Below, one piece after another: positions 1 through 61,597 of a stretch of 64,000 nucleotides of DNA (positions within the stretch are counted from its first letter, which is position 1; each line of letters opens with the position of its first letter). The stretch spans positions 1-64,000 of the forward strand of contig VCMS01000399.1 of NCBI GenBank assembly GCA_022539475.1. Direction: 5' to 3'. The position numbers were made by a program, and so were the translations under genes. The DNA is from Gracilaria domingensis. Taxonomy: Eukaryota; Rhodophyta; Florideophyceae; Gracilariales; Gracilariaceae. The notes under the pieces were generated by a model, which saw only the letters and a list, made by a program, of their open reading frames with translations, was not told the DNA's origin and did no database searches.

Positions 1-227
1 CTGGATTCTCCTCTTCTCCTTCATACTAACAGGTCTTCATCCTCCTTGAACTTGAGCGCGAAAGTGTGTCGTTAAGCTGTGTGCCTGTTACCGCATCCGG
101 AGCGGTTTTATTCTCAGCGTTACCATGTACATGTGGAAAGAAACAGGAATCTCGGGGAATCTTCCGTCCTCATTTGAAGCTGAAGCGCCTGCTGCATGGA
201 AACACATCACCCTTTCCAATAAATATA
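1..227 (-). other. Probable continuation of the interrupted gene beyond the window edge
   Basis: On the minus strand the last open stretch stops at 228, but the sequence there can be read as a short intron: a GTAATA donor-like site at about 233 and an acceptor-like CATGCAG about 40 bases on, followed by a further open stretch with a Pro/Phe-rich peptide. This is consistent with the oxygenase-like gene running off the left edge. It is only a reading of splice-like sites and is not confirmed. Confidence 0.2.
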
Positions 228-2997
228 TTACTTAGGCGGAACGAAAACTTCCCTCAAAACATCCCCGTGCCAACCTTCAAATGCCTTTCGGGAAGTAACT
301 GCGTTAGTGTGTATGAGACCCTTCACATACCCAAATTGGAAACGACCACTTCCGGACACCATCTTAAAGTACCCCGGGTTCTTCTTTTCTTCCAGCTTAT
401 CCTCATTCGCCAAGGTCGGGAAATCCGTATGTAACTGCTGCTGCTTGCATCCAACTGCAGTGCATAACACCCCTCCCCCGTCTTCGGCGCATACATCCTC
501 TCCTTTTCCACCCTATTATTTGTGAACCCATTAAAGCACATATCTGTCCCAGTCGGGCATCCAGTAAAGCTCTCTTCTTCACAAGCACATATCTTTCTAC
601 GGCTGCCTCCATATCATCCACTATGCCTCTTCTCGTAGTCATGTACCTCCCACCATCTGCGTTGATGATCGGTATCCATGTGATTCGGTTCTCTGGTATC
701 CTAAGGTCTGGAGCTCTCTCGAAGTCCCTTCGGAAGAAGTCCAGTAATTCCACACTAACATCCCCGTCAATGAGCTTGCTCAAACTCTCTGTCAGCTTCA
801 CCAACTCTCCATCCGATGCAAAGCCGTCCAGAATACAGAAACCTCTGTCTCGAAGCTCGGCGTTCTTCTTTACAAAATAGACATACGCAAGAGAGTCGTT
901 CTTCAGTGCATCCCCCCATAACGTCTTCTCGTCGACCTCCATGCCTCCCATTGCCGCGTTCAGGAGTTTATGGCCATGATACGCTGCATGCCAAAAGACT
1001 GCATGGTGCACACTTTCAAAGTCTTGGGCTCCAACAAGTGGCCTCGGTGTTGCTTCTGGAGATGTATCGCATCCATCCACGGGTACACAGATTTAATGAC
1101 ATTCTCCACTCCAGTCGGCCACTTGCTTGGTAAGGTCTTCACCAACTTTAGCCACGAATCGTCACCTTCATATGCTACTTCTTCAGCCTTCTTCAGACCT
1201 GGCGCCAACACCTGCGGTACTGTGTCATCGAACGGGTCAGTGTCCTCTGCCTGTGAGACCACAATTGGTACTCCATCTGAGTCTGTGTCGCTACCAATGG
1301 ATATCTGATGACTTTTCAACAAGTTTCTCACCCCCTTCGCACCAAGACTCCGCAGATGACTGATAACTTCATCCTGAACAGATTGAATACCCTCCGTCCT
1401 TGACTTCTTCCGTTGATTAGGGTTCACGTCTCTCATTGCATTCCTTCGTCGACGGCTTCGTCTTGAACTCCTCATGCTTCTTGTCTTCGATGGCATATTC
1501 TCTTCACTTTCTACATCAGAGTCCTTAGAGCCCTTGCGCACTGGCGCTTTGGCCTTCCTACTTGCCGAACGTGTGGCCATTCTCTGCGTTGTAGACTCGT
1601 CTACCGCTTTGGTCTCAGACTGTGGTTCAGTCGGCGTAGTACCAGTGGCAGGTTTCAACATATCCACCCCTAAACTCTTTGCCAGCTTATCACGAGCAAT
1701 CCAGACTCTTCTCGAAATCCTTCCTTCCCAGAGCTTCTTATTCGAAGGTACTTCAATTCGTGCTGCCTGTGTTGCAAGGTACTCACGAACGGTGCGCATT
1801 TCAAACTTTGTCACTTCCACCTTCATGGCATACGCTTCTTCCAATGTAACTTTCTTCTTCTTCGAAAGCTTCTCTGCCAAAGATTGAAGCCTTCTGCAGC
1901 AGATAAAGAAGTATTTGCGTACGTCTTCAAAACACCCGTCAGTTTCGACACTCGCCTCCTGGAAAAGTATGCAACCAGAGCGTCGAGCGTGAAGTGGGTT
2001 GTATGCTCATCCATGGTAAAGAATTCATCACTTGATATACAAGAAATTCCAATCTCATGGTAGTCCCCACAAATCCGCTCCAAATGTTCCAGCAATCCAG
2101 GACTTTTCGCCACCTTCAACCCCATCTCTGCAAATCTTGCCAAATGCTTGATATTGTACTGGCCAATGATACCGCAAACACTTAGTGCACCTGCGACAGA
2201 GGTCCTCGTCATCTTGCTCAAGTCCTTCTTCTCTTCCTCAACCAGGACCCTTATAAATGACACAATAAATGCACCTTGTCAGCAAAACCCATAAGACGAG
2301 CTTGCTTCAATCCATCGTTTAGCACATTGCCAAGGCTCAAGATTTCCCTCGTGGTCATCTTCTGTCCATCTTTTCTCTTCCACAGCGAAACAGAAAGACC
2401 TCCACATAGATTCCTAATGTTGGGCATAGATTCACAGAGCTCTTTGAGTGCTACATAACGATGAGCTCCATCAATCAGCACACAATTCACTTTCAAGCGA
2501 TTGTTCTGCACTATGTCCTTCTCGGACACATCCTGAGACAGAACAGCAACGCTCATGGTCCCAAGTGCCTGTAAGAAGCTTTTGCGTCCAATCTCTTCTT
2601 TCAGAGCCTCGACATGATTCCGGAACAACCCTCTCACAGTCATTTCCGGAACTTGAATGAGCTCAATATCGACTTGAACAGACACATACTCGTAATGATC
2701 TAAGTCAAATACCAAACTCGCTAAACTCGTATCGACATCATCAGGAGGTATCACATCACCTTCATCAAAGAGTTCATTGACGTTGCTTCCAAGGCTTTCC
2801 TTCACTAGAACCACGTCTTCGTCTTCGTCTTCATCCACGTCAATCACTTCCATTGTCACTCCACTGCGATTTCCAGCCTGAGTAATAGCTTCCGCAGTGC
2901 TGTTCCTCGATGCTCCAGACTGCACAATCGTAGCAGTTTGTTTACGAAATGCCGATACAGCACTCTCTGGGGTCGTGGTCATCTTGAATTCTTGCAT
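228..2997 (-). pseudogene. Interrupted gene with ParB-like domain and a 2OG-oxygenase-like stretch
   Basis: Four minus-strand open stretches follow each other with short overlaps (2997-2251, 2263-1823, 1880-960, 1080-403) and a fifth at 470-228. Each overlap has a one-frame switch, so this is a decaying gene, a gene with sequence errors, or one with very short introns. The first part (residues about 98-200 of 2997-2251) resembles the ParB/Spo0J nuclease fold: a start like VPEMTVRGLFRNHVEALKEEI, then LIDGAHRYVALKEL, the classic ParB box. It is preceded by an acidic run with MEVIDVDEDEDED. The 1880-960 part is very basic and Ser/Arg-rich, as in nuclear proteins. The 1080-228 part has RGFCILDGFASDGE and, about 135 residues later, QQLHTDFP, which resemble the start and the iron-binding HxD motif of 2-oxoglutarate oxygenases; this is weaker. 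The gene runs towards or past the window edge. It is divergent to the methyltransferase-SET gene. Confidence 0.5.
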
Positions 2998-3269
2998 CTG
3001 CTTTCCACCACCGTGAACGTTCGATGGTGTTTTCAGCTTTGTACTGGCGCTTGTTTCCCGCCTTGGGGTTTTTTAGCATTCGACGGGGTTTTCACATGAG
3101 CCACTTTCATCTGCATTCGCTTTCGGGCACTGGATGGAGTTTTAGGTTCTACCACTCGCACCCGTTTCCCAGCAGTATCGATGGCTTCTCAGGGGCGAGA
3201 ATTTGGAACTCGGAGCACCCTTGTCCCCTTCATCAGCGCTTACGACGTCACCCACCTTAGACATTAAGT

Positions 3270-3700: not shown

Positions 3701-4000
3701 CCTAGTCCCCTCATATCCATTATATGGTGCCAGTGTGTGTGATATACACGAGTCCTGGTGTTCTTCAAATCGTACGTTTGCTCCCGTGAAGTTGCAACCG
3801 CTCGTGTTCGAATCTCTGCCCTTTCTCGCGTGAGCACAATGGACGCAACCACTCACGTTCAAAACGGCTGCAATGCCCACGTGAGCAGTGTGGGTACAGT
3901 TCCTGATGGTTATAAATGGTTGGATCAATGTCTGATTCCGTCCTGGTTGACCACTGTCCCCGCCTTTCATCATCTTTGAACATCGCCCGAGCGCCGTGTG

Positions 4001-4076
4001 GGAACCGCGGTTCGCCGAGTTCATAGCCGAGATCATAGCTATGATCTCGGCTATGAACTCGGCGAACCGCGGTTCC
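4001..4076. repeat. Perfect 76-bp palindrome in left arm of the MITE-like element
   Basis: The sequence is its own reverse complement over 76 bases with no spacer, centred between 4038 and 4039 (…GATCATAG/CTATGATC…). Perfect spacer-free palindromes of this size are unstable in many hosts, so its survival suggests recent arrival or very recent amplification. Confidence 0.9.
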
Positions 4077-4495
4077 GGCACGGCGCATCTGACGAAACGC
4101 CACGTGTATACCGCCGAAAGGACCCCCCCTGAGGACCCCTGGAGACCACTTCTACTACACAATGCGCACCAAAGCACCTGTTCTCACCCACGCCACCACT
4201 ACCTGGTGGTGTTGCTGGCGTTTATGTGGGCAGTGAATAAGTGACGCCAGTCGATGGCCGCCGCCCTCCGTGCGCTGCTCCGCTCCCACCGCATCGTCTC
4301 TCCTCCTCAAGCCCTTCCCCTCCGTCTTCCACGCTTGCTACACAATGTGTCCGAAGTGTCATCCGCGTCTCCATCGCTCTCCCGTTTATTCGACGTCACT
4401 GCCCACATAAACGCCAGCAAGGGTCCTCTAGGGGGGTCCTCAGGGGGGGTCCTTTCGGCGGTATACACGTGGCGTTTCGTCAGATGCGCCGTGCC

Positions 4496-4571
4496 GGAAC
4501 CGCGGTTCGGCGAGTTCATAGCCGAGATCATAGCTATGATCTCGGCTATGAACTCGGCGAACCGCGGTTCC
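4496..4571. repeat. 76-bp palindrome in right arm of the MITE-like element, one mismatch
   Basis: This is the counterpart of the palindrome at 4001-4076. It is self-complementary except for one position (TTCGGCGAG on the left side against TTCGCCGAG expected). Confidence 0.9.
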
Positions 4572-4880
4572 CACACGGCGCTCGGGCGATGTTCAAAGAT
4601 GTACGAACCCAGTGTTTTCTACGTTGGTTTTACATACTAGACATATAATGCACTGCACATACTGAGGTGCCCCACCGGTTTGATGTGTTTAGATCCCACT
4701 CTCGTCTCTCTATTTCATTACCCGCTCAGTTTCGGTAATCCGTCGCAACCGCGCTCTCCACCATTGTTTCCGACGCTTCCCGACGTTTCCGACGCTTCCC
4801 ACCCATTTAAACATCTCCGAAACTTCTACCGTTTCACAATACTCGTTTACTTCGCGTCCTTTCCGATTCTCATTTCTTAC

Positions 4881-7748
4881 ATGGCGTCCACCGGAAATGA
4901 CGCTCCTCGGACTGTTAAGCAGAGTGTGCTGGCCGATGAGAACCACGGCACGGTATCCTCTAGCGCATCCTCTAGCGCGTCGTTCGATTCAGCCAGCATG
5001 GCAACGCGTTTCTTGAAATGTTGGGGGTTGTTCATTGAGTTGCGAGATGCGTATGCCGCTTCAAGAAGTGGTACTGGTAATCCGCGTGAAGTTGGGTACA
5101 CGGAAGTTGTGGAATACGCTGTATCAAACCGTGAACACCTGGCATGTGCACGAGAGTTCATCACCACTGCGGTCAAGGGTCCTTTCCAAAACTACTCCGC
5201 AAAAGAACTCACGAAGATCTGTCTGGACGTGCGTTTTCTGAGCAGGGTCTACAAATATACGCGTATCACTGATCTAGACGACGAGAATTCTGATCGGCGC
5301 GTGAGAGATTTGTTTACCTGGAGTCTTGAAAAGGATGTCGACAACGGTAACTCGTTCATAGAACGGGCTTTCTGGAATGACCTTTTCAAACGACATGGTC
5401 CAGGCAGTAAGCAGACGAAGAGAACTACGTTCAGGATTGGGCCTCCCACTCGTTTTCAGCAGTTACTCTATCTCTCTTTCGTGAAGCATATAACTTCGGA
5501 GAGAAATCTCCCAGCGGCGAAGAGAGGAAGGACCGGGAAGGGAACCCATAGAGCTGTGCAGTTCGTCGACGACTACATAGCTTCGAATGAGACGCACGGG
5601 AGACGGATGGCACATGCAGTGCAAACGATTTGTAAGGGATGGGATTTCTTTGCCTCAACCTTAGGCTTTGGTGATGGTGAGCAGATGTTGCTGCCATACC
5701 TGCTTGTAGAAAAGAAGTCGCTTGGGTTCCATGTCATTGAATCCCGCTCTGTTGGGTACAGTCCGGAGTCAGCTTTTTATACGTTGGGGGAAGAACTGAA
5801 ACCCACGTTGGATGTGAACGACACCGTTTCTTGGGTTCATACTCTTCCGGATACTATCGAAGCCAACTTACGGGAGTTGGCAAAGGAATTCTTGGCAGAT
5901 TTCAGCAAGATTGTGTTGAATGGCTTCCTATACCAAATGTCCCCAACGTCAAGATGGAATTTGTTGGAAAGCTTCAGACCTGGCCGCCCCGCACGAGTAC
6001 CACCCCGTTTCAATGTATCCTCCGAAGAGTACGTGTCTCCTATTCGTCAAGCGATGTCTGTACATAACTTCCAACCATCTCGACTTATCCCTAGGGCCGC
6101 TCCTTCAGGGCAGGATGGAGGAAGTAATACCGTCACGGTTAAGGTTGAGGACTCGATACAGATTCCGAGCTCCTCCAAGAGGAACGCCGCAGGGAAAAGC
6201 TCAGTTAACTCCGATGTCATCGTCATCCTCGATAGCGACAATGAAGAAGGTGATACACCTGGTGCCTCTGTTACGGCGAAAGATAACGTTCCAGATGGGG
6301 TTCTCCCCCCTCATGACTTTGATGACACGCGCACGTTAAATGCTCTAGATGTGGTGCGAGGAAGCATGGAGAAGCAATTCTCAATGCATTGTGTCGGATA
6401 TGACGAACTGGTGGAGGCCCATGGTACTATCTTCCCATCGGATACATCTTTGGAAGGCAACGTTCAGTTCGTGCTCACAGACCCACCATATGGCATCCGC
6501 GACAGCGAGTACGACGAATTGGCTGACGATGATATGGACAATACTGCGGACATCATGGCATCCATGGTTCGACCAGGAGGAAATTTCGTTCTGTTCTGCA
6601 GTATCGACCAGTTTGGAGACTGGGAAGAGATTTTGCGAGAGCACAAGTCGGAGGACGCAAGCGGAAAGAAAACCGCATCATTCTTAGTGGATTCGACGCC
6701 CATGAACTTCATTCGTTCTCGTTCGAACCCCTTGAAGAACCCTGCGCGTAATACTACTCACCTGTTTGGGGCGACGGAGTACGCCGTGCATGGCGTGAGG
6801 AATGGAAACCCGTACGCGGAACAGAAGGTAATAGTAAACTATCAGAACTTCGACTACGTTTCAGCTCGCTATCCTGGACACTATTCTATCATTGACCAGG
6901 TTCCAAATCTTACGCCTGGGGAGAGTCTCCGATGGAGAGTGAAGAGTGGTAGAAGAATTCCAACCGCGAAGGCTCGTCCAGAACAAAAGTCGAGGCAGCT
7001 ACTGATGGAGCTGATAGCGAGGTTCTCGAATCCCGGGGATGTTGTGGTTGATCTCTACTCCGGGACGTTCTCGTGCGCGCTGACATGTATGGATATTGAG
7101 GGGCCTCGGCGTTTCATTGGATGTGAGCAAGATGAGCAGTGTTTCTCTCATGCCAAGCACAATGCTATTGTGCATTACGCAAGAAAGGTGTGGCGCAATG
7201 AATTGAAGATGAAAGAACCGGTTACGAATGAGGTAGTTCAAGCGTCTTATGTGGTGGATGCCAAATTTCCTGAACGGAAACGAAAGACTTCGACTATATG
7301 GAATGCACCCAAGGGATTCCCATCGTACCAATCTTTCCCATTCCATATCATGTCGTACCTATCCACCTATTGGAATGAACCTGGTCTTATCACTACGTAC
7401 AAAGAGAAACCGTTCCATGAGTGGCCACTTGCCTTACAAGGGAAGATGACTACGTTGGACAGTCACACTTTACTCTCTGTCGAGGCGACATCGCTATGGC
7501 TCTATGTGAAGAAGTCAAATATCAAACATGCAGCAAGTGGAAATGGAGTATTTACGACTAGGGCGTTTTCCGAAGGGGAGGTTATTGGATACTTTTATGG
7601 GACCTTGGTGTATCATGATCTAAGCCGACGCAATACCACACATTTGACGTATGGAGACGGAAAGCTGGGGGCCACTGCATCTCGGTTCAGGAAGTATTGC
7701 ATGAAAGTGAGGGTGAAGGGGCAAATGTACAACACTCTCCCGCATTAA
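4881..7748 (+). CDS. Beta-class DNA amino-methyltransferase fused to SET domain (SET cut by an in-frame stop)
   Basis: The start at 4881 (MASTGNDAP) gives 955 residues; an upstream ATG at 4680 would add 67 residues that look non-coding. Residues 1-430 are an unrecognised N-terminal part. A hydrophobic-acidic patch, VIVILDSDNEE (about 446-456), resembles a SUMO-interaction motif. The methyltransferase follows: TDPPYGI (Asp about 534; motif IV, DPPY), RPGGNFVLFCS, then EQKSRQLLMELI (motif X-like) and PGDVVVDLYSGTFSCA (motif I position, Asp about 724) with IGCEQDEQC. The order IV before I is that of beta-class N6-adenine/N4-cytosine methyltransferases. A SET domain begins at about residue 877 (ASGNGVFTTRAFSEGEVIGYFYG); the stop at 7746 cuts it, and its second half continues in the same frame. 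Expected role: DNA base methylation plus, if the SET is made, lysine methylation in the nucleus. Motif I departs from the usual FxGxG form, so activity is uncertain. Confidence 0.75.
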   Translation: MASTGNDAPRTVKQSVLADENHGTVSSSASSSASFDSASMATRFLKCWGLFIELRDAYAASRSGTGNPREVGYTEVVEYAVSNREHLACAREFITTAVKGPFQNYSAKELTKICLDVRFLSRVYKYTRITDLDDENSDRRVRDLFTWSLEKDVDNGNSFIERAFWNDLFKRHGPGSKQTKRTTFRIGPPTRFQQLLYLSFVKHITSERNLPAAKRGRTGKGTHRAVQFVDDYIASNETHGRRMAHAVQTICKGWDFFASTLGFGDGEQMLLPYLLVEKKSLGFHVIESRSVGYSPESAFYTLGEELKPTLDVNDTVSWVHTLPDTIEANLRELAKEFLADFSKIVLNGFLYQMSPTSRWNLLESFRPGRPARVPPRFNVSSEEYVSPIRQAMSVHNFQPSRLIPRAAPSGQDGGSNTVTVKVEDSIQIPSSSKRNAAGKSSVNSDVIVILDSDNEEGDTPGASVTAKDNVPDGVLPPHDFDDTRTLNALDVVRGSMEKQFSMHCVGYDELVEAHGTIFPSDTSLEGNVQFVLTDPPYGIRDSEYDELADDDMDNTADIMASMVRPGGNFVLFCSIDQFGDWEEILREHKSEDASGKKTASFLVDSTPMNFIRSRSNPLKNPARNTTHLFGATEYAVHGVRNGNPYAEQKVIVNYQNFDYVSARYPGHYSIIDQVPNLTPGESLRWRVKSGRRIPTAKARPEQKSRQLLMELIARFSNPGDVVVDLYSGTFSCALTCMDIEGPRRFIGCEQDEQCFSHAKHNAIVHYARKVWRNELKMKEPVTNEVVQASYVVDAKFPERKRKTSTIWNAPKGFPSYQSFPFHIMSYLSTYWNEPGLITTYKEKPFHEWPLALQGKMTTLDSHTLLSVEATSLWLYVKKSNIKHAASGNGVFTTRAFSEGEVIGYFYGTLVYHDLSRRNTTHLTYGDGKLGATASRFRKYCMKVRVKGQMYNTLPH

Positions 7749-8048
7749 GATACTGAAGTCAACGCTGGTCATGCCTGGATAGTTCCTGCTCCTTTCTGTG
7801 TAGCGGGCTATATCAATGACGCGTCATATCGTGAAGGTGATGAGGACAAGGAATTGGAAGAAATGGATTCTAACATGGCACGCAAATCAAATGTATTCAT
7901 TCGCCAGCCCACAGAGTATCAAGCTACAACTTTGGGACTTTTGGAGAACTACAGACTCCTCGTAGTCACGGCCTCAAGGGACATTAAGGAGCACGACGAA
8001 ATTTACGTTGACTATGGACCCACATATCCTTGGGAAAGGTTAACCTAG
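7749..8048 (+). pseudogene. C-terminal half of the SET domain, in frame after the stop
   Basis: Reading on in the same frame after the TAA at 7746-7748 gives about 99 more codons. They contain the SET C-terminal signatures: an Asn-Val near RKSNVFI (equivalent to the NHSC-PNV region) and DEIYVDYG, which matches the ELTYDYG substrate/cofactor segment. The frame ends in WERLT. The stop is thus the only visible lesion in the SET domain. Possible explanations: recent pseudogenisation, a polymorphic allele, read-through, or a sequence error. Confidence 0.7.
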
Positions 8049-8512
8049 GTTCTCAGACAATGTCCTTGAACTTCGTATGGGCTCAATGTAGTGAGAAAAG
8101 CTTTTTGTTGAAGTAAATTGTATTGAACACTTGTGCTATGGTTGCAGAAATACTACTCATATGTACACTGAAGCTGTACTGTGTAACATATTGATGCATA
8201 TAGTGGTATGAAAGATCGTTGAAAGTGCCGTACTTGTGTATGCAGGGCGCAACATCCGGGAAAATCGGACCAAGTCCGGAATATGGACCCGGGAAAGGTC
8301 CAGAAATTGAATGCCGATCCGCCACAAATGCTGCAGAATGCTTTTTTCCATATATGCAGTACGAGGTTAAATTCCCCTCCCCTTCACATATCAGTCCTGC
8401 ACACCGAGTACGTGACCCTCACATATCACTCTCAATCATATACCTTCAGTATCGTTCACGTTTCTATATCTGTTCCGTAATACTACCGCGCACGAAGGCC
8501 GAAGGATCTCGG
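8049..8512. other. Intergenic spacer, nothing recognised
   Basis: This spacer separates the SET reading frame from the start chosen for the coiled-coil gene. An open frame runs from 8219 into that gene, but its peptide looks non-coding. I see no RNA gene, repeat or clear promoter. Confidence 0.5.
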
Positions 8513-10960
8513 ATGGCCCCTCAACGTGCGGAGCATGCAGGTGGTAAACCGCGAAAGGCATATGTACCGCCGGAGCGCTGGGATACTGGGGTGGCCAAAC
8601 GTAGGAGCGCGGTCGTCCCACGAAGTAGTGCTACTAATGGGAGAGGTAGTAGCCGAGGCCGAGCACCTCGTGCTGGACTTCGCAAACCAAAATCTTCATC
8701 TACAGTATCGGAAGTAAAACCGAGAAGGAGGTCAGGAGCTTCCACATGCACTACGGAACGCACAGTAAGTGAAACCGTTCAAGCCAAGAATAGTGCAATG
8801 CGTGGGCCTGTTACACGCCACATGGCTGCAATGGAGGAGCCAAGGGTCAGTGATGATGGAAATGTAGATGTCAAAGCGATGAAAGGAAATAAGAGAAGAA
8901 CGGCTGTACGTCAGAATGTAAGGAGGACAAGAGGCAGTGGAGGAACAGAAGGTCCTCGTATCGATGATTGTTTCGACAAGGTGAGAACTGCGGATGACAA
9001 TGCGGAGATGGAAACCATGGATTGCGCCATCGTGAGAGCCGAACCTAGAGCCGAACCTGGGGATAGGGAGATACCCAGAAGCGCTGCCGGAACAGAACGT
9101 AACAGTTATGATTCGAGAAAAGTGAAGAGGAACGAGAAAATGAATGAGGGTGTCTCTCGTGCCAAGAAAGGCAGTGGAAGAAAGGAGCGGGAGTCCACGG
9201 ACGCAGTAGATATTCCAAGTGACGTCGAGGACAAGGATAACGTGGAAGCGAACGATAACGTGGACGCCGGAAATGCAACGCATATGGCTCCCATCGAAGG
9301 CAGGCATGATTCCGTCCCTCATATTGGGTCCAGACACAAGGAAGACGAAGACGAAGACGAGATACAACCGACCCCAGTCACAGGTGAGTCACAGAGAAAC
9401 AGGTTCAATCAGGTCAGAAGAAGGACGAACCATGGAAATGAGAATAGACGGGTGGGGAACGATCGGCAACCTGTCATAGCAAACGCCCGTAGAGAAGTAT
9501 GGAACGATAAAGATGTTGATCGTGGTGCTTTGTCACGGAGCTTTTCCGTGCATGGTGCAATGGAAGAAGATGAAGATGAATCCCTTACTCCGCGATACGA
9601 GCTTTTGGAAAAGATCGGGAAACTGAAGAGAGATCTGTATCGTACAATAGAGGACAAGCAAAGTCTGAAAATGAGCGTACGACTTGCTCAGAAGAACATA
9701 GAGCAACTGGAGGTTAAGGTCAGAGAACAAGAGGTTCTCATACACTCTTTGAGAAAGGCTCTCAGACGTGGAGGGAAAAGGAACGAACGTGACAGTAACA
9801 AGAGCAGGAAGCGGTACAACATTGACGTGAACGACGAGTTTGTTGGTGTTGCGAAGACCGTCTATGACTCCATACTTCAATACGCCAAAGACGAGACAAG
9901 AGAGCTATGCTTCGAGATGAGTATACCGGCAAGGAACTGGGGCAACCGAAGTGAGACAGTTGGACCTGAGAAAGACGACAGTGTGCTGGTTGTTGATGGG
10001 AAGGAGATAGTGCCACGGTGCCCAATGGATCTTGCCATGGAGATGAGGGCGTACACGCCATCCGTACGTGGTGGAGGCGACCATTTATTGATGCAAATTG
10101 TGGAGACGGAGGTAATGAAGCCACGTTGGGAATCTATCCGAGGAATGAAAATGGAAGATGACTGTGTGAAACAGTTAACGCACGACATTTGTTTGCGCAG
10201 AAGGTTGAAACAGGCTTTAAGTGATGCAATAGGTGTTCGAAAACGCCATGCGAAGGAGAAGTTATTGATGGGACTAGGTTACGACATGCTTGTAAGGACC
10301 CCGATAAAAAATGATGAAAGGGAGCAGAACAAGTATGAAATACAAACCAGAGAGGTACGTGAAAAACTCCTACCCGAAGATGCAAATGGATGTGAGATTC
10401 TGTCGTCGTGGAGAACTCAGAAGGTAGAAGATATATGTTTCTCGGGCTTTAACCCATATCATGCAACCGAAGGTGAACCATGTGACTTGCTTTTTCGGAA
10501 CAGCCTGAGCTTGGAGGTGCTGCGTGAGTTCATGGGCTACGACGTTTTACAAACAAGTTCGAGGAATACCGAAGAGAAGGATCCAGTGGATGGAACAATT
10601 ATGCATCTGGCATGTCTTGATGCCTGGATAGCGTCCGTTGTTCGCGCGACAGAGTCTGAACGAGGGAGAGGTGGTAAGAGACAAGTGTTGTTCTCCAACT
10701 TGTTCGGGAAATATCTACCACTGGCACTTGAGAGTATACTGAAGACAGTGAGGGTCCGCATGCAGCAGAGTTATCCAACAGAGTTCAGAAATGGCCCATC
10801 GAATACTGAAGATGCGCGGCATGGAAATGATGACCGGGTGGGCACTGTGGTTTACTGGATTCCGTCGAAAAGGAAAATGTACCTTGCTGTCCGAGAAGAT
10901 GTGTTTATGGGAAAGATCTCTGAGAAGCTCGGAGCTGCACTGGATTGCTATGTTGGATGA
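8513..10960 (+). CDS. Large basic coiled-coil protein of unknown function
   Basis: The start at 8513 (MAPQRAEHAGGKPRK) gives 815 residues; the frame stays open back to 8219, but the upstream 98 residues look non-coding. The first 350 residues are low-complexity and rich in Arg, Lys, Glu, Asp and Ser, with acidic runs (EDEDEDE). Residues about 357-425 form a strong predicted coiled coil with heptad-like Leu/Ile spacing (LLEKIGKLKRDL, NIEQLEVKVREQE). The rest is globular-looking with no domain I know (for example LEVLREFMGYDVL and LFGKYLPLALESIL). It follows the methyltransferase-SET gene on the same strand, about 460 bases downstream. It may be a nuclear structural partner or an element-encoded protein. 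No function is claimed. Confidence 0.65.
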   Translation: MAPQRAEHAGGKPRKAYVPPERWDTGVAKRRSAVVPRSSATNGRGSSRGRAPRAGLRKPKSSSTVSEVKPRRRSGASTCTTERTVSETVQAKNSAMRGPVTRHMAAMEEPRVSDDGNVDVKAMKGNKRRTAVRQNVRRTRGSGGTEGPRIDDCFDKVRTADDNAEMETMDCAIVRAEPRAEPGDREIPRSAAGTERNSYDSRKVKRNEKMNEGVSRAKKGSGRKERESTDAVDIPSDVEDKDNVEANDNVDAGNATHMAPIEGRHDSVPHIGSRHKEDEDEDEIQPTPVTGESQRNRFNQVRRRTNHGNENRRVGNDRQPVIANARREVWNDKDVDRGALSRSFSVHGAMEEDEDESLTPRYELLEKIGKLKRDLYRTIEDKQSLKMSVRLAQKNIEQLEVKVREQEVLIHSLRKALRRGGKRNERDSNKSRKRYNIDVNDEFVGVAKTVYDSILQYAKDETRELCFEMSIPARNWGNRSETVGPEKDDSVLVVDGKEIVPRCPMDLAMEMRAYTPSVRGGGDHLLMQIVETEVMKPRWESIRGMKMEDDCVKQLTHDICLRRRLKQALSDAIGVRKRHAKEKLLMGLGYDMLVRTPIKNDEREQNKYEIQTREVREKLLPEDANGCEILSSWRTQKVEDICFSGFNPYHATEGEPCDLLFRNSLSLEVLREFMGYDVLQTSSRNTEEKDPVDGTIMHLACLDAWIASVVRATESERGRGGKRQVLFSNLFGKYLPLALESILKTVRVRMQQSYPTEFRNGPSNTEDARHGNDDRVGTVVYWIPSKRKMYLAVREDVFMGKISEKLGAALDCYVG

Positions 10961-11899: not shown

Positions 11900-13558
11900 T
11901 TAACTACCATCACGAACCATGGAGGGACACCGCTGCGACAAACGACTGGCCGAGTTGGTAGACATGGAGAAGTGTTTCCTTACCGAGATGGAGTGTAAGA
12001 AATCCTGCGACTCTTGGATTGAGTCCACTGTTTCCTTATGCGCAGTTGATCTTCTGCGAGAGGTACGGCGGTAGTGGTTCTTGAAGAGGAGATGCGCGTG
12101 CTCGTACACACCTGCATCACCGAAATGGAGGCCTCTGTATCGACGGATGTCTGGAATGATGTGATCCAGGAGATGGAATTTGAGAGTACGAAAGTTGGAG
12201 GCCTGGTATGGACCCAAAACTGAGACAGTTTGAGTCTTGAAGTTCTTGATGAGAGTCTCCAAAGAGCGTAAGCGATCATCAGTCCATTCTGAGGCAGTGT
12301 GGTAGTGAAGAACGTTATTGACGAGATCGACGTAAGAGGTGAAAATGGTGTTTATTGGGGCGGGAGATACTTCACCGCAGCAACGGTCGAAGAATGCACC
12401 GATGAAGAGGAAGACCATGTCGAGGGCGCGATAGTCCTTTGCTTCTAGAATGCCTCTGATTCCGTCAGTGGTGAAGAAGCCGTTGAGAGACTTACCCTTT
12501 TCAGATGTCGAGAAATCAATATGAAGCCCTGGAGCCGGAAACGAGCGTTCGATGTCAGCTAGGATGGAGTTGGCGTGAGTAAGAATAGATGTTCTGATGG
12601 ACCGAAACGACCTGGAGGATCCATTGAAGCCCACGGAAGTGTGAAGAGAATCGGACTTCAGGCGTTCGATTGTGGCAAGTTTGATGAGTTTAGAGATGCC
12701 AAGGTGAAAGTTGTGAAGGGGCTCGAAGGAGAAGATTGAATAAGGAGTGAGCACTGAAGAGATGTTGAGAAGAGGGTAAGATTCCAGAAAGGACTTGTAT
12801 GGAGAGAGAGAGGTGGAGTGGAGAAGTTCTGCAGCTTCTTCTTTGAGGTTCCTTGCAACCCGTGGTCTATGGGAGAGGAGAGCAGAATCTGCCTCGAGAA
12901 GTAGGTCATCATGTCTTTTTCTGGTTTGCAAAGTGTGTGAGAGGGTTCGCTCTGTGAAAGTAGGTTGGCAGAGGTTGAGTTTTGAACGAGGGAAGAGACA
13001 CCGGTGGCAGGGTTTGCTTGGCTTTGTGCCATGAAGTACTGCGAGAATGTCCTTGGCTTCGGGGATGTCAGCGCTGTAGTTGGAGATGACTGGATGGCAT
13101 TGACGAAGGACTCCTTTGGCGTCGCGGAAGGGAAAACCCTTCATACCGATATGATACAGAGGTTTGAGGATGGTTTCTAGGAACTCCTGGACGAGCTGCA
13201 TGCGCACAATGCGGGTCACGCTGGGGGTTGAGGGAGCTACTCCCAAGGAATCTGTGTCAGTGGAGGACGAATCGGAGGTGAAGGATGTGGGTATGTATCC
13301 GACGAGTGTGTAGTTCTGCGTGATGCACTTTCTGCGGAAGGAGTCATTGAAATTGAGGAGGGTGATGTGAAGAGGATACGACGTACCAGAAGAACTTTTC
13401 AAAGAAGTGGAAGACTTGTCTGAATATAGTTGAACGAGGCCTACGAACGAGTCTGTGCCGGTGATACTGGGATCGTGCCAGATGACGTCGGGGTCCGGAG
13501 AATGCATGATATGCCTCTTGATAGTCGTGACGACATGGCGGCCGAGTTCCGAAGCCAT
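11900..13558 (-). CDS. Plavaka/CACTA-like transposase, central region
   Basis: A 552-codon frame. Signatures in order: YSDKSSTSL…YPLHITLLNFNDSFRRK…LVGYIPT (about residues 44-92), which matches the Plavaka segment with D-K, P-Y, I-x-N and RRK; a Cys pair in KPCHRCLFPRSK (about 180-195); FEPLHNFHLGISKLI (about 273-287), equivalent to the D-x-H-x-x-x-x-G catalytic-region motif; and LKFHLLDHIIPDIRRY with GVYEHAHLLFKNHYRRTSRR (about 480-520), equivalent to the late K-x-H…E-x-x-H-K block. In this family the protein cuts and pastes the element through an RNase H-fold core. The ATG at 13558 may not be the true start, as earlier coding sequence lies upstream in other frames. Catalytic residues were assigned by resemblance only. 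Confidence 0.65.
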   Translation of the reverse strand: MASELGRHVVTTIKRHIMHSPDPDVIWHDPSITGTDSFVGLVQLYSDKSSTSLKSSSGTSYPLHITLLNFNDSFRRKCITQNYTLVGYIPTSFTSDSSSTDTDSLGVAPSTPSVTRIVRMQLVQEFLETILKPLYHIGMKGFPFRDAKGVLRQCHPVISNYSADIPEAKDILAVLHGTKPSKPCHRCLFPRSKLNLCQPTFTERTLSHTLQTRKRHDDLLLEADSALLSHRPRVARNLKEEAAELLHSTSLSPYKSFLESYPLLNISSVLTPYSIFSFEPLHNFHLGISKLIKLATIERLKSDSLHTSVGFNGSSRSFRSIRTSILTHANSILADIERSFPAPGLHIDFSTSEKGKSLNGFFTTDGIRGILEAKDYRALDMVFLFIGAFFDRCCGEVSPAPINTIFTSYVDLVNNVLHYHTASEWTDDRLRSLETLIKNFKTQTVSVLGPYQASNFRTLKFHLLDHIIPDIRRYRGLHFGDAGVYEHAHLLFKNHYRRTSRRRSTAHKETVDSIQESQDFLHSISVRKHFSMSTNSASRLSQRCPSMVRDGS

Positions 13559-14081
13559 AGGGTGTGCGATTGCGGTAGTTCCTGTTCTTGAAGCTTGTTT
13601 GACTGGATGAAAGAAGGAGTTGCTGTGGGATGCGAGACGAAGTTGTTGTAGGAGAACCTGAACGGGGTCCCTGAGGTAGAGGGTGGTGGAGAAGTTTTGG
13701 TTTTTGTCATGGATGATGGTTGAGGTGAACCCAATGGAGCTGACTGTTTCTTCGAAGATTTTGGAGTGCAGTTTCAGACATTCGGCAGCGGAAGTGATGG
13801 AGGTCTGGAAGAGGGAAGAGGGAAAGGTGGATTGCTTGAGAATGTTGATGAGCTCGTCAGCAGAACGCTTTCCGAGTTTTGTGGCGATGGAGGATATGTA
13901 GGTGACGAGGTTATGGATGTGGTCTTTCTGTGAGGGGGAGAGGGGGAGAAGGCGTTACCTGAGCCTGTGGAAGGGGACTGGGAGGCGAGTTGGTGATGCG
14001 GGCTGAGTATCTGTGCTGCGTCGGATGAGCGTAGGGAGAGAGCAAGCTGTTCCTGGAGATAAGGGTCGTCGTCTGCGAGTG

Positions 14082-14300
14082 CTACGTTATCGGACGGGCG
14101 GTTAGAGGGGGGAAGGAAGGGGGTTCGGTGTTGTTGAGTCTGCGGCGCTTGGTTCGGGGAGGGAAGTGGGATCCTCGATGAGGTGTTGCAGTGAGAAACG
14201 GGTTTGGGTCATTCCTGTGTCTGCATCGCTTCTGATGCCGGGCGAGAGAGGCGAGGGACTGTGTATTGAATGAGCAGCGGGGGAAACAACAGTTGTGCAT
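14082..14300 (-). pseudogene. N-terminal C2H2 finger of the Plavaka-like transposase
   Basis: From the ATG at 14300 the frame encodes MHNCCFPRCSFNTQSLASLARHQKRCRHR, a C2H2/C2HC-like finger (Cys-x4-Cys, then His-x-x-x-Cys or His), followed by a Pro/Arg-rich tail, and stops at 14082. Plavaka transposases commonly start with such a finger. The interval 13.56-14.08 kb has no single open frame that ties this to the central region, so splicing or decay is needed to explain it. Confidence 0.5.
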
Positions 14301-14652
14301 GGCTGGGTGAGAGGGTATGAAAGTAGTGAGGGAAGTTGCTTGCAGAGGGAGGTCGGTGGTGATGGTGCGGCGCAGAATCTTGGAGCACCCTGCAGGGGAG
14401 AGTATAAAGTGTGTGTATACGCCACCAACTCCACCGTGCACGTGATCGTTTACGTACCTTTCCTGCATGTTTCAGTGTGGGGAGGATTTCGAACTTTTCT
14501 GAACACAACTTTCAAAAAGTTTCGCGGACTGCGCATTACGCGGCCGGCGATGATTGACGTACAGTGTGGCTGCGATTGAAGTTCTTCTTCTGTGAGCTTC
14601 AGTGGCGTTGCCTCTCAGAGTCCTGTCCTGGGATGTGAAACGTGCGAAAAAG

Positions 14653-15900
14653 GTAAGTCGAGGCGTAAATGTTTGATATGGCGAATATGCGCGACTCTGA
14701 CCAGTGTTTTTGCGCGGCGGCGGCTGTGTGCGAGAATGAGCGCGACAGGTTCATGAAGCTGCAGCGTGCGGAATCTTTGGATTGGAACCGGAGTAGTTCA
14801 GGTTTTTTATGTTTGGGACGCGTACTGAATGGGTTCAATGTAAGTGAGACCTTTTGATGCTGATGGTGTTTGCGAAGTCTAACTGCGGAACGTTACGTGA
14901 TTTTGCGAGACGCACGGAGAGGATTTGGAAGCAGGTTAGCGTGAATGTCTTGGGTGGGGGCCTATGGGTAAGTTTGAGAAGCTTTTTGTTCGACTTTTGA
15001 TGTGAATGCTAACTGGATAATGTTGTATGCGTATGCGTAGGGCTTTTGGGACAGTTTGATGCGTGTTGTCGAGGGTATTGGTGAGGTAGGGGACACATGG
15101 TAAGTAGATCAGTGTTCATTTGAGAATGTTTCGAAGAGCGAAGAGTTAGCTAACGAGATATGTGACTGCGCGGCGGGGGCTCTTTGCGAGAATGAGCGCG
15201 ATAGGTTCATGGAGTTATAGCGTGCGGGATCTTTGGATTGGAAGTGGAATGGGGATGGGGCGGAAGGCGGTGGTTTACTTCGTTTCCTATGTGTAACGTG
15301 TTTCTTTAGGTGAAGTGGATAAGGGAGAATGGTTACGATGTGGCTGGGTGGTTGGGTTTCTAGAGGAATCATGCTAATGACCCTGAACTCTGACGAACAA
15401 GAGTTTGGGGTCATGGAAAGAATGATTACCTCAACGGAGGCCTTCCAGGTAATCATTCTTTGCCATTACTCCAAATTCTTGTTCGTCAGAGTTCGGTGTA
15501 GATGGCAAGGTACGCGTCGGGGTAAGTACGAGATGTTTTTTGTTCGAGTTCTGATAAGAATGCTAACTGGTTACTGTTTTTTGTGTATGTGCAGGATTTT
15601 CGGGACAGTTTGATTCATGTTTTCGAGGCTATTGGTGAGGTAGGGACACATGGTAAGTAGATAAGTGTGCATTTGGGAAAGTTTCGAAGATAGAAAAGTA
15701 TCTAACGGAGTATTTGACTAGCTTGTGTTTGTGCATGTGCAGGTGCGTTGGATGGCAATGGATCGGTGGCGGTGCTGGAAATTGTGCAGTTGAGATGTTT
15801 TCGAGGGAGTTGGGGAGATGAAGATGGCCAAGAATGTTGAGGTAAGTGTGTTTATTTCCATGTTGGGATGGACGAAGAGACTAGGCAACAGAAAACTAAC
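14653..15900 (+). repeat. Duplicated exon-like units with seven GTAAGT sites
   Basis: A unit seen at about 14697-15140 recurs at about 15160-15690. Landmarks shared by both copies: a stretch encoding CENERDRFMKL…SLDW (14736-14787 and 15187-15243), GAATGCTAACTGG (about 15005 and 15556), and a block GGGACAGTTTGAT…GGTGAGGTAGGG…CACATGGTAAGTAGAT (15049-15108 and 15602-15661). A weaker third copy of the last block ends at 15847. GTAAGT occurs on the plus strand at 14653, 14840, 14968, 15100, 15522, 15653 and 15842. These could be donors of a gene with small exons and short introns, or part of an unrecognised repeat. No long open frame spans the region. Confidence 0.5.
15379..15499. mobile_element. 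121-bp foldback element inside the second copy of the duplicated unit
   Basis: Two 53-base arms (15379-15431 and 15447-15499) are near-perfect inverted copies separated by a 15-base loop. There are about six mismatches and one gap by eye. The first copy of the surrounding duplication lacks it, and the second is longer by about 100 bases, which fits insertion after the duplication. Family unknown. Confidence 0.7.
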
Positions 15901-16449
15901 CAAGGGGATGTCTACATTGAGGGCAACGAGAGCATTTTCAGGGTATCTATTCGGTGAGTTTCGATGCGTAATTATCTTCCAAATGATACAGGGCTTCTTT
16001 CGTGATGTCAGAATGGATTTTCGGGGGTGGGAAGTAGGGTGGAGATGTGTGCGATGACCGGTTTGGACCTGTTTTCATGTGGTGCTATACCTTGCATGAA
16101 CCTGCAATACTGCATCAATAACATTCATTTCTGCTAGGATGGAACTTCCACCGTGCTTTCGGACCGATGGCTCTTTTGGACCGATGGACCGGTAGTACTA
16201 GTGAACTAGCAGAAATGGAAGTTAGTTCTAAGATTCTAGCAACTTTCATATTTCTTAGAAATAGCTCGTAGTTTGAAAGTCAAGCCTAGTATTCCATTCA
16301 AACCATACTGCAGAATCTGGAGTTTACTCTAGTTTTTCTTCCACTTCAAACTTCCACTAATCGCAATTTAACATATGAAATACTAGCATTTTTTTTCTGC
16401 GATTTTTGGACTGTAAACTAGCATCCCGGAAACACAGACGAACGGTAGT
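15901..16449. other. Non-coding spacer
   Basis: No gene is seen. An 11-base inverted pair (ATTTCTGCTAG at 16129-16139 and its complement at 16206-16216) flanks a stretch in which GGACCGATGG recurs. It is AT-rich at the right. The spacer ends where element 1 begins. Confidence 0.4.
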
Positions 16450-19400
16450 ACTTCCGTTTGACGAATCTCCCGGCCTTCACGGGGATAACCGTTTCAGTGA
16501 CAGAAGTGCGTACGGCACTCCATTGGCAGGGCGGCGGTTGGCCCGGCCACGGGGCTTGTGCCACGAGCTCTGATTGGCTCTTCGCCGCGGATTAGCGACC
16601 ACGACAATCGTGCGCGTGCCGTGCTCGGCCATCCGTTCGCGAAAGGTCGCCGACCGCTCATTAGGGCTTTCCAAGTTGTAGCGTGCATCGCGTGGCACGC
16701 ACCTGGGTCTGTCAGGCCCCGTGTCACGTAGATTGCACTCTTGCAGTGGTGGCGGTGTTCCAAGTCTCCACACGCGACGTGGTTCACACTGTAGAGTGTC
16801 GGCTTTCAAGAAAGCGTTAAAAGTCCCACAAGGGAGTCCATTATGACTGATAACATTCCGCACAACTCGTTCACAAGATCCTCCTGTTCAGGGATGCAGT
16901 GCTATTCTTCCGCGTGCAGCGGCTGGTCCGAATCAGCGGAAACCGTTGTCACAGTTCGGCTGTGCTTCTCAGCGCGGTTACGCGATTTCAAGCGGTTAGA
17001 GGTCCCAAAGTGGGTAGTTGCTTCTGCGGCGGCGTCGCGCCTCTCGCGGGCACGTTCCACAAGGCAACTGTGCCACTAGATTCTCCTACGGGGGCTACTG
17101 GATTGTCAGTGTGGATCACATTTCCCGTGGTTGGGGAACCGGGCGACACCGGAGTATCAATGCCATTCGCAAAAGCTGCGGTACCCTCCCCATCCTTAGG
17201 TGGCTCCACGGGCTCCATCAGAAGATGGGGTGGGGGGGTGACTCCTGTAGTTACTCGTGCAAAGTCGTTGGAATTAGTCCAAGTAGTAGCAAGTTCAGTT
17301 CTGTGGGCAGAAGTACCGACTGTAGGTAGATCAATTAATCCTCGATCCGGCTGCGGAAGAATCGCCGGGCGCGCTGGTAAGGTAGCAGCCGTCGACGGTT
17401 CTGCCTCCTGTTGAGGGTCCCTTGATTGGGTATTGGCTGAGGTAGCGGTGGGTGGAGTCGGGGCGGGCACATCGCGGTCACGCGAGATTCGTTCATGATC
17501 TCCGTCAATGTCGAGTACGACAGTATCCAGATTGACGAAAATGACGCGATATGGTCCATCAGCGATGGGGGAGAGCTTGTGTCTCTTTTCCTTGTCAGGA
17601 TTGTAATACTCCTTTCGAAGGAACACAAAGCTGTTTGGCTCTACCACCACTGGTGTACCGCGAAGTTGGCGATCGAAATTACGCTTGTACGTAAGCTGTG
17701 CCTTGTCCATGGCCTTCCAGCTACCGGTACCATCTCGGTTAACCAATTTTTCTAGGTTTCCTTTTACATCCGTCGTGACGGGAAAGACGCTAGCATCGGT
17801 TGTGATTCGATTGCTACCGGTGGCGGTATCCTCGAAAGAACGAGTTCAAACGGCGAACGCTTTGTTACCCGATGCATCTGGGTGTTATACGCGTACGTAA
17901 TAGCATCGGTGTACAAGTCCTAATCCTTTGGGTGATCCGCAACATATGATCGTAATGCGTTAAGCATTGTACGATTAAATCGTTCTACCTGCCCATTACA
18001 CTACGGATGGTAGGTTGTAGTAAACAAATTCTTGACATCCAAGATACGGCATACGTTCATAAGGAACTTTGACGCAAACTGCGAGCAATTGTCTGAAAGC
18101 AGATTAACGGGTGGTCCGTAAGTGAAGACCCAATGCGTCACAAATGCTTGTGCAACTGCTGCTGCAGTGATACGCTTCAACGCAACCGTTCGCATTAACT
18201 TCGAAAACCTGTCCGTGATAACCAGGAGATACCTGTGACCGCGTGGGGTTCGAATTAATTTGCCCAGAATGTCGATAGCGACGAACTCCAAAGCAGCCCG
18301 GGCTGGAAACAGCGTCATCGACTTCGAATTTCGTCGTAGTTTGACGTTGTTTTTGGCGCACTCCGTGCATGAACGGCGTACTGCATAGCAGTCGAATGCC
18401 ATAGCTGGCCAATAAAAGTGTCTTCGGAAAGTTAGATACAACTTCCTGCCACCAGGGTGTCCCCCAATCTTTGCATAGTGGGATATATGGAGAACCCTCC
18501 ATTGTAAGGAGTGTGGAACCACAATTTGAGGGCGTGGCCCAACAATCCTAACAAGGAATCCCTGATCGTTAGTGAGAAATGGTATCTAATCCCCCGTTGA
18601 GTCGGGCCCTTATCTGAGTACGGAAAGGATCCCCGTATTGTTCACGTATTACCTCTTCAGCGGTAATGGGTTCAAATGAGCCAGGCGGTGGCTCGACCGT
18701 TTCTGCGGCAAGAATATCGTCACAGATTCATCCGTAATTTCGGAGTCTTCCTCCCAGCCTTCCACCAAGAAGCATGGTATGTCGTCGTCGTCGACATGTT
18801 CTGCCTCACCAGACGTTCCTAACCGGGAAAGCGCATTAGCCTGCATATTCAGGGTGCCCCGTTTGTACCGGATATCAAAATCGAATTCCGATAGAAGGAG
18901 ACGCCAACGCATAAGGCGACTCGATGGCTCGGAGATCTCCATAAGCCAGCGGAGAGCCGAATGATCTGTATGTATCTGGGAATGGGTTCCCATGAGATAG
19001 GGTCTTAAGGTAGACAGAGCCCAAACGACGGCGAGACACTCTTTCTCAGAGACTGAGTAATTACGTTCATGCACGTTCAATGAACGAGACCAGTATCCAA
19101 CTGGACGTCGCTCGCCTTCCTTCGAGATTTGAAACAATGCACACCCCACTTGGTGGTCACTGGAATCAGTATCAACTCATATGGAAGCCCTGGTGTGGGC
19201 AACGCCAAAATCGGCGGAGACGTTACAGCGTCGATTAACGACGAGAAGGCGGATGCTTCCGCATCGCCAAAGGGTTCCAGTTTAACTGGCTATCCTTTTC
19301 TGAGGAGAGAGTTGATAGGAGCTGCAGTATCAGCAAAAATCGGGACGAACCGATGGTAGACATTACACAAACCGAGAAATGATCGGAGTTCCGTTTGAGT

Positions 19401-34125: not shown

Positions 34126-34985
34126 TGTGGTGCAAAACCGGTGACGGGAAAACAACAGCCGCGTCGCGGAAGAGCACCGACAGGGGTGTTCGAACCCTGC
34201 TCCCTACAGGGGTAGGCGCAGTGACAGAACCCTCCGATAGGGCCAACACGAGCCGGGTGTAAATCCGGGTGACCCCGATCTGGGCGTGCAGTCGGAGGTA
34301 GAGGGGGGTAGAATCGGCGTAGGTATCCGAATGGTTCCGGCGAGCCACAGCGAGTGGGGGTATCCAGCCCAACGGTATGGGACGAAAAAAGATCAAAAAA
34401 CGAGCCGCACTGCGGAGCACTGACTCGCGATAAGCGGGAAAACTCCCGAGACAAATGGGACAAACCTACAATGTAGGGCAGAGTAGCGAAAGCCGTAAGA
34501 CGGAAATGAAAACAGTAAAATAGATGAGAAAAGTGCCGTGACGACGGATTAGTACTCCTCAGGGACGGAGGTTGGTTGATCAGCCCGGAATTGCGGCGGT
34601 ATTCCCCAGGATGGGGCTTGTGACCGTGCGCAAGCGGCAAGAAGATCAGAGCCAAAGGCCTCGTTGAGGTTTACTTCCCGTACAGTGGCGGCAAGTGCCG
34701 CCACTTATATACGGCACTTGAAAATATCAATTAAAATACCTAACTATCCGGCGCTGCCGGCCAATACACTACAGGTGTGCCCCCGTGGCATGCTTGCCAC
34801 GGCGCACCCGCTATCGGGCCAACTTGGCACACGTGTGCAGAAACACTACCCTTCCTAGGCACAACCCAAAATAGGGGCACTACCCCAGTAGCCTCTCATA
34901 ACCTGAGGTGTCGAAGCCGATGACGGATCAACAAACTATGAAAAGCACCTCGGTGCATCCCCACAAAAGGGCGTTTTGCTCTACA
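34126..34985 (-). repeat. Element 3 3' LTR (860 bp)
   Basis: Plus strand TGTGGTGCAAAACC…TTTTGCTCTACA. Identical to 45047-45906 apart from one C/T difference near 34763 that I saw. Confidence 0.95.
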
Positions 34986-34998
34986 TCTCCCCCTTCTC
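34986..34998 (-). promoter_or_regulatory. Polypurine tract of element 3, at the 3' LTR
   Basis: Minus strand GAGAAGGGGGAGA, abutting the LTR; the expected primer of plus-strand synthesis. Confidence 0.8.
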
Positions 34999-35045
34999 AG
35001 GCTGAGACACCGACTCCGTCGGCTCGATACGCCTCGCGATGGAGG

Positions 35046-35053
35046 TATATAAG
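35046..35053 (+). promoter_or_regulatory. TATA box for the antisense gene of element 3
   Basis: TATATAAG on the plus strand, 94 bases before the ATG at 35147. It lies just inside the 3' LTR, beside the polypurine tract. A start of transcription at about 35075-35085 would give a short leader. Confidence 0.55.
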
Positions 35054-35146
35054 GAAGTCTCCCAAGACGGGTCTGCCGAGAACTGTTCGGAGCCACCAAC
35101 ACCTCCGGTGTCAGTAGCGAACCTCGTCATCTCGAGCCCTCCCGCG

Positions 35147-36838: not shown

Positions 36839-36963
36839 TTCCCCGGCTCGCGATCCCTGACGGGCTACGGTAGTCCGCGATAGACCCCGATGATGAGGGG
36901 CGACTCAATAGTTAGAGGTAAACTTCTCCAGCCGTGCTGGCTTGGCTCAACTCTTCGTCTTGC

Positions 36964-36976
36964 TCTCCCCCTTCTC
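36964..36976 (-). promoter_or_regulatory. Second copy of the polypurine tract, between pol and the antisense gene
   Basis: The same 13 purines as at 34986-34998, and identical over 15 bases with the next two. It stands just beyond the end of pol, on the far side of the antisense gene. Confidence 0.75.
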
Positions 36977-37347
36977 AGTGGGCAATACCTCGTTTGAGGC
37001 TGTTGCAAATGGCCCACAAGAGAGGGGTAACTTTTCCGCACAAGCGGCTGTAGCGATAAAACTTCTTAGTCTTCCTTCCAGTGTCCTGGCTTCTTCTCCT
37101 TCTTCTTAGGCTTCTTTCTTCTTTATCTTCTTCTCCACTGTAAGTGGCTTCCGCCTTTCGCGGCATGTTTGTTCAGCGAAAAGCTGTCCGCTTAGAGCGG
37201 CCTGGTCCGCCTGAGGCGGCTAAGTGATCTCGAGCTAACTTCAAGTTGCATCCGCTTGACGCGGCATATTCTTGCGTAATGCAATACTGTTTGCATGAGG
37301 CGGCATACTCCGTCTGAGACGGCTGTGCTCAATAGGGACGTGAGTGA

Positions 37348-42756: not shown

Positions 42757-42872
42757 GTCTGTAGTGGCCAGTTTCCTCGAAAGGATTGTGACCGGGGAGC
42801 GAGGCTTCTCAGCCTCAGGCGCACTAAACCCCGTCGCTGGGGGCGCCTCTCCATTGCTGGAGGCCCCCTTGC

Positions 42873-44882: not shown

Positions 44883-45025
44883 CGTTCACCGACACAGTCG
44901 GCCAATGGGCAACCAAAACAACTTCCGAAAACGGACAATGAGAGAACCGTAAGAACGGATATTCCCAACTATCTGGGCTCCAAACAAACGAACCAGCTCC
45001 AACGATTGTTGGCCAATAAAGCCGA

Positions 45026-45043: not shown

Positions 45044-45046
45044 GTT

Positions 45047-61550: not shown

Positions 61551-61597
61551 CCCAGTACTTACGACGCCCGGCGTAGCGTCGTTTGGGTTTGGTGGTG

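Follow-up and report, generated by a model that had tools for sequence, protein, structure and literature searches.

The first 64,000 nucleotides of contig VCMS01000399.1 of the red alga Gracilaria domingensis (hereafter the window) contain a reading frame, at positions 4881..8048 of the plus strand, that joins a DNA amino-methyltransferase (MTase) to a SET domain. We found that this open reading frame (ORF) is one copy of an MTase-SET fusion gene of a transposon, broken here by a single in-frame TAA. The frame starts with ATG at 4881 and terminates at a stop at 8046-8048, as a reading made from the sequence alone had proposed. However, it is not open throughout as that reading had it, because frame reading places a TAA at 7746-7748 of the plus strand, within the SET domain, where it separates the two halves of the domain in the window copy.

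The beta-class N6/N4 DNA methyltransferase domain occupies 6462..7157 (plus strand; PF01555, found in the window ORF at C399:6462-7157 and in the intact copy described below), with DPPY at motif IV and a GT-type motif I downstream. The sequence-only reading had noted DPPY ahead of the S-adenosylmethionine-binding motif in beta-class order, and the profile agrees with it. The open part of the window ORF matches Pfam N6_N4_Mtase at 1.9e-12, or 48 bits where the cut-off is 26.7, far beyond chance. The SET domain region is stop-interrupted and lies at 7539..8018 (plus strand), a position transferred from the intact copy, where the domain spans residues 887-1046. Pfam gave no SET match upstream of the TAA, and the C-terminal half of the domain behind the stop reached 0.0017 for PF00856 (19.2 bits, under the cut-off of 22.4). 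SET thus stays below its cut-off in the window copy because the in-frame stop splits the domain.

An intact homologous copy, L005 (L005:1501-4668, minus strand, contig C12), reads through all 1055 amino acids without a stop, alone among the 30 family-1 loci (L001-L030). In L005, N6_N4_Mtase scores 1.3e-14 (55.2 bits against 26.7, residues 528-759) and, in the same open frame, SET PF00856 scores 2.3e-6 (28.4 bits against 22.4, residues 887-1046). Since the intact copy passes both Pfam cut-offs, the union of MTase and SET in one polypeptide is real at the level of the family, of which the window holds a broken copy. The claim of a eukaryotic protein with both domains therefore stands. So does part of the claim for a SET domain with both terminal signatures: the two ends share one frame in the window, but the TAA lies between them and SET exceeds its cut-off only in L005. 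The DPPY segment did not score as another Rossmann fold. Two further Rossmann methyltransferase families match the MTase part of L005 at E values of 0.1-0.16, below their own cut-offs, and N6_N4_Mtase alone passes.

The transposon around the gene

What the sequence-only reading did not contain is that the gene is a high-copy repeat inside a transposon, which also has a Plavaka transposase. The transposase ORF lies at 11903..13954 on the minus strand and is open over 684 amino acids here and up to 1110 in other copies. Its domain, at 12692-13693, matches PF18759 at 5e-23, with 82.3 bits against a cut-off of 26.3. On these sequence features we assign the MTase-SET gene to a giant Plavaka-lineage (EnSpm/CACTA-like) DNA transposon as an accessory gene, and do not regard it as a captured host gene.

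The right end of the element is marked by a terminal inverted repeat, CCGGAAACACAGACG, at 16426..16440, and this terminus recurs in 12 of 12 loci (L037-L048). The right terminus, at window position 16440, is followed by a flank of its own in ten of these loci; the window and contig C61 share one flank. The stretch 13800-18000, which covers the right end and the flank leading into a gypsy-like element, recurs about 100% identical at C61:52128-56326, and this recurrence is either a segmental duplication or redundant assembly. The left terminus lies beyond the window, as the contig begins at window position 1, and was read in C140 and C42. The two termini form an inverted repeat, CGTCTGTGTTTCCGG, that matches exactly over 15 bp, except for one mismatch in C42. 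The element termini, CGTCTGTG..CACAGACG, are unlike those of the fungal clades PlavakaA and PlavakaB, which are TGT..ACA or CATCA..TGATG in the available text of PMC12730594. The element matches neither, and we therefore file it as Plavaka-lineage only.

Ten copies were picked for reading target duplications, and both ends were obtained in six. A 2-bp duplication is present in four of the six (C96 TA, C120 CG, C202 AT, C277 AA). At 1 in 16 each, the chance of four or more is about 2e-4. The six elements measure 13,227 to 22,039 bp. The one on C12, at 19,977 bp, contains both the intact L005 gene and a Plavaka match in a 1110-amino-acid open frame. Similarity among copies extends far past the MTase-SET ORF, and some copies are rearranged (L032, L036).

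The association also appears genome-wide. We counted linkage for 123 scored Plavaka matches of 672 candidates, setting aside the eight ordinary SET matches that scored strongly and, among the 150 MTase rows, the weakest 21. A scored MTase or SET match lies within 9 kb of 44 of the 123, against a rough chance level of 5%, and the orientation is convergent, as in the window, in 41 of these 44.

How many copies does the alga carry? The counts for the host genome are lower bounds. The SET profile gave at least 150 scored matches (311 candidates), the majority spanning about 480 bp and scoring much alike, and the MTase profile likewise gave at least 150 (328 candidates). The DNA of the window ORF has at least 42 matches at 86-100% identity (40 scored of 189 candidates). 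Compared with L005, 28 family-1 copies show 210 synonymous and 714 non-synonymous differences, a ratio of non-synonymous to synonymous rates (dN/dS) of about 0.99, 19 stops and 84 insertions or deletions. These copies are not independent: common changes are counted repeatedly, and some pairs resemble duplicates of one insertion. No substitution separates L005, L006 and L008. The dN/dS ratio, the stops and the indels indicate that family-1 copies decay as dead copies do.

Conservation and predicted activities

Two further families were each read from a single copy, L151 (C257) and L152 (C382, family 3), and both have MTase and SET by Pfam. Among the three families, protein identity is 34-43% in the MTase, 32-41% in the SET domain and 20-24% in the N-terminal 480 residues. 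Fourfold-degenerate sites in MTase and SET agree at 15-34%, near chance (14/41 and 9/34 between families 1 and 2). That the domains are conserved while such sites are near chance argues that selection has maintained both MTase and SET over a long time across the three diverged families. The families do not form one group in a 28-protein tree. Family 1 stands beside P0001 (90/92), family 2 beside P0003 (100/99), and family 3 is placed elsewhere, across a weakly supported fork.

A protein search with residues 480-1055 returned 25 relatives at 27-43% identity, 16 of which have both Pfam domains precomputed. One fused relative comes from Chondrus crispus, so the fusion does occur in another red alga, where the sequence-only reading had suggested looking; its record is annotated as adenine specific DNA methyltransferase only. 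Another of the 25 is annotated merely as DNA modification methylase. A viral origin of the fusion was rejected on the matches listed: viral contigs gave at least 110 relatives (80 kept), and those matches cover residues 489-786 at most, which is the MTase with a short stretch past it, and none of them touches the SET part. A prokaryotic fusion was rejected on similar grounds: an MTase-pattern scan of prokaryote contigs gave at least 48 relatives, and among the matches listed all lie within residues 482-813.

Two metagenome proteins among the relatives, P0014 and P0019, have an N-terminal extension with a DGAHR motif ahead of MTase and SET. The ParB-like profile phrog_1033 matches P0014 weakly (0.014), and a ParB-MTase-SET architecture is possible for these two proteins. 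L005 itself has no ParB match by Pfam or PHROGs, and no Chromo domain by Pfam.

In L005, DPPY is at residues 534-537 and the GT of motif I at 728-729, which puts motif IV before motif I, the beta-class order. Of 26 aligned members, 25 have DPPY or DPPF at motif IV, and all have GT at motif I. The solved structures nearest to the MTase by profile are DpnA (6.7e-15) and CcrM (5.7e-11), and the closest phage family in PHROGs is phrog_67, DNA methyltransferase (1.5e-25). DPPY is typical of bacterial N6-adenine enzymes, and SPPY of most N4-cytosine enzymes, in the portion of PMC8885841 at hand. The DPPY motif points to N6-methyladenine (6mA) as the predicted product.

For SET, GxG is kept by 24 of the same 26 members, [FY]xG and the asparagine of NHS by all 26, and the terminal tyrosine by 23, with the exact letters DYG in 11. 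L005 lacks a cysteine-rich post-SET after DYG. The nearest solved structure by profile is SETD8/KMT5A, at 3.4e-5, and no single stretch passes alone. The SET domain of family 3 (L152, C382) retains an NH (INHFDY), whereas ND or NS occupies that place in the 26 aligned members.

What the fused protein may do

Why would a transposon carry such a gene? We consider it probable that the MTase-SET gene is accessory to a cut-and-paste, Plavaka-lineage transposon of about 20 kb that has multiplied in this red alga, and that its two marks would keep chromatin permissive or control transposition. The methyltransferase half, judging by DPPY, would add 6mA to the element's own DNA. The SET half would methylate lysines of histones at the element, or of a transposon protein. 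Jointly, the DNA and lysine marks might hold the chromatin of the element permissive against host silencing, or regulate its own transposition. Since a many-copy element carries the fused protein as cargo, that element may put marks on DNA and chromatin of its own. The likeliest use would be such self-marking, for anti-silencing or for control of transposition, which matches the proposal made for ParB-MTase proteins in the available text of PMC12477816.

Several observations weigh against this reading. Two of the six copies with both ends read, C12 and C233, which have a common left flank, lack a target duplication. No scored MTase or SET match lies within 9 kb of 79 of the 123 scored Plavaka matches; unscored candidates may account for part of this number, and the Plavaka-MTase/SET link may therefore not be universal. 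Family searches gave no assignable function for the remaining accessory ORFs of the element. Motif IV is EPPY in family 3 (L152) and SPPR in P0020. Solved N4-cytosine methyltransferases are matched by the MTase profile as well, although less strongly (9.5e-5), which leaves N4-methylcytosine (4mC) as a possible product beside 6mA. Finally, the NHS position reads ND in 23 of the 26 aligned members and NS in three, and the terminal tyrosine is missing from the alignment in three, so that SET catalysis is not assured. With motif IV conserved, and the SET motifs kept but NHS altered, the fused protein has a good chance of methylating DNA and its SET half a fair chance of methylating lysine.

A more specific form of the proposal can be held only tentatively. 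It makes the protein a single dual writer that would write 6mA into the DNA of its element and methyl-lysine onto the element's nucleosomes, a two-layer self-mark of permissive or self-regulated chromatin kept in several diverged families.

It is somewhat doubtful, at a lower level still, that only the DNA methyltransferase half is active, with SET serving as a binding or scaffold module or methylating, in place of histones, a protein of the transposon such as the transposase. The altered NHS position in all 26 aligned members, the weak SET sequence scores (SETD8/KMT5A being the best solved relatives) and the missing post-SET of L005 all speak for it. The retention of GxG, [FY]xG, the asparagine and, in most members, the terminal tyrosine speaks against it, as does the conservation of SET between families, which is about as good as that of the MTase.

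Dam methylation licenses or times transposase cutting for some bacterial transposons. A DNA mark might likewise serve transposition here, and not anti-silencing, if methylated ends or newly replicated DNA licensed or timed the cutting. The gene lies close to and convergent with the transposase in the great majority of linked cases, and an accessory amino-MTase is present in an unrelated giant algal transposon (PMC12477816, in the available text). Nevertheless, a DNA mark alone leaves the SET domain unexplained, and we regard this possibility as unlikely.

That the gene is passenger cargo, useless to the element, is improbable. The lack of a full intact ORF in 29 of the 30 family-1 loci would fit it, but both domains are conserved across three families whose synonymous sites are near-saturated, and they also occur in other proteins; on these comparisons the idea is disfavoured.

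The least probable alternative by our estimate, and a very improbable one, is that the alga captured a bacterial DNA methyltransferase and fused it to SET as a host epigenetic regulator like rotifer N4CMT: conservation of the fused open frame in several lineages and the rotifer precedent (PMC8885841, as far as its available text goes) favour it, but it is rejected for the window copy by dozens of near-identical copies, their neutral decay and their location inside elements bounded by terminal inverted repeats with a transposase. The capture that the sequence-only reading had in mind thus gives way to transposon cargo in many decaying copies, with DPPY in place of SPPY and no chromodomain.

If both halves work, a genomic parasite would be making a protein that couples a base mark on DNA, directly and physically, to a methyl mark on protein, and the element would offer a test system for algal 6mA as the host's or the parasite's mark. 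The gene also counsels caution, since 6mA or 4mC called in a red alga may stem from transposon-encoded enzymes.

Other features of the window and relation to known systems

Downstream of the MTase-SET gene and inside the same element is a 906-amino-acid ORF (8240..10960, plus strand), through which the copies stay similar. No family exceeds its cut-off for this ORF in Pfam, NCBIfam or PHROGs. It has basic, low-complexity and possible coiled-coil stretches. At 1..3072 on the minus strand lies a broken copy of a divergently transcribed ORF that is open over 1169 amino acids in L035 (L035:1-3507). By motif reading it has putative DG.HR (ParB-like) and HxD...H motifs, the latter as HTD...HAG (dioxygenase-like). 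An assignment as ParB-like plus 2-oxoglutarate dioxygenase found no support in Pfam, a PDB profile search, NCBIfam or PHROGs, and we do not claim it. The database relatives of this ORF are two, P0026 and P0027; a profile search for further ones found none, and no significant similarity emerged when the ORF (A2) was compared by profile with P0014/P0019.

Upstream of the MTase-SET ORF, at 3971..4601, two 169-bp inverted repeats (3971-4139 and 4433-4601), 99.4% alike and with near-palindromic 96-bp cores, surround a segment that some copies carry in flipped orientation. Among 30 loci it has the window orientation in 18, is flipped in four (L005, L006, L008, L014) and is absent from eight. The segment could be an invertible promoter, or the repeats could simply have recombined with each other.

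Two other repeat pairs lie further along the window. One, 99.9% alike (34126-34985 and 45047-45906), surrounds integrase-chromodomain and reverse transcriptase ORFs, and the region 34126-45906 is, by these features, a recent Ty3/gypsy-type chromovirus-like retroelement. The other, 99.8% alike (53473-55385 and 61597-63509), surrounds an aspartyl-protease ORF (55375-58353) and a 992-amino-acid ORF, so that 53473-63509 appears to be another recent long terminal repeat element. Elsewhere in the assembly, phycobiliprotein matches bear out that the host is a red alga: ten of 12 fall on a single contig, C680, read here as the plastid genome.

How does the element relate to known systems? Giant Plavaka transposons are reportedly named, in the abstract of Petroll and colleagues, as the cause of Bostrychia genome growth. 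Giant EnSpm elements with several accessory genes occur in red algae, for example Bostrychia moritziana (Petroll et al. 2025, as cited in the available text of PMC12477816), and the window element resembles these EnSpm/Plavaka elements as a giant DNA transposon with several accessory genes. ParB-methyltransferase-like proteins are described from red and green algal transposons (same source, citing Petroll et al. 2025 and Iyer et al. 2011). Unlike them, the protein of the window element shows no ParB-like part. In Ectocarpus, Sola1-1_Ec32, an element of 21.5 kb, similarly has an accessory amino-MTase gene on the strand opposite the transposase. However, it belongs to the Sola superfamily, and its 1104-amino-acid protein is ParB-like plus amino-MTase, with no SET mentioned in the accessible part of PMC12477816.

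The rotifer protein N4CMT likewise combines, in a eukaryote, a bacterial amino-MTase of the beta class with a chromatin domain. In contrast to the seaweed protein, with its DPPY and SET, N4CMT has SPPY, makes 4mC and ends in a C-terminal chromodomain reader. Moreover, it is a host gene that marks transposons, whereas the seaweed gene is carried by one (comparisons within the available text of PMC8885841).

Among other DNA transposons, the HarbingerS and MuDR elements of Phytophthora also carry a SET histone methyltransferase gene, although they belong to other superfamilies and the available text of PMC12730594, in which they are cited, does not mention a DNA methyltransferase in them. Fungal Plavaka and KDZ elements with TET/JBP genes, covered in the same text, provide a case of Plavaka with a DNA-modification gene. 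There the gene encodes a dioxygenase eraser of 5-methylcytosine; here it encodes an amino-MTase writer together with SET.

The words Plavaka and methyltransferase were not found in the available text of PMC12502185. The literature searched, in which Petroll et al. 2025 is represented through PMC12477816, yielded no description of an MTase-SET fusion in a transposon. Giant red-algal transposons with DNA methylases are thus already known, and it is the SET-joined protein that appears undescribed in that literature. A transposon-borne SET gene, DNA methylase and DNA demethylase are each on record separately in the sources available; in the Gracilaria element, a single polypeptide unites the writer of a DNA mark with a SET domain.

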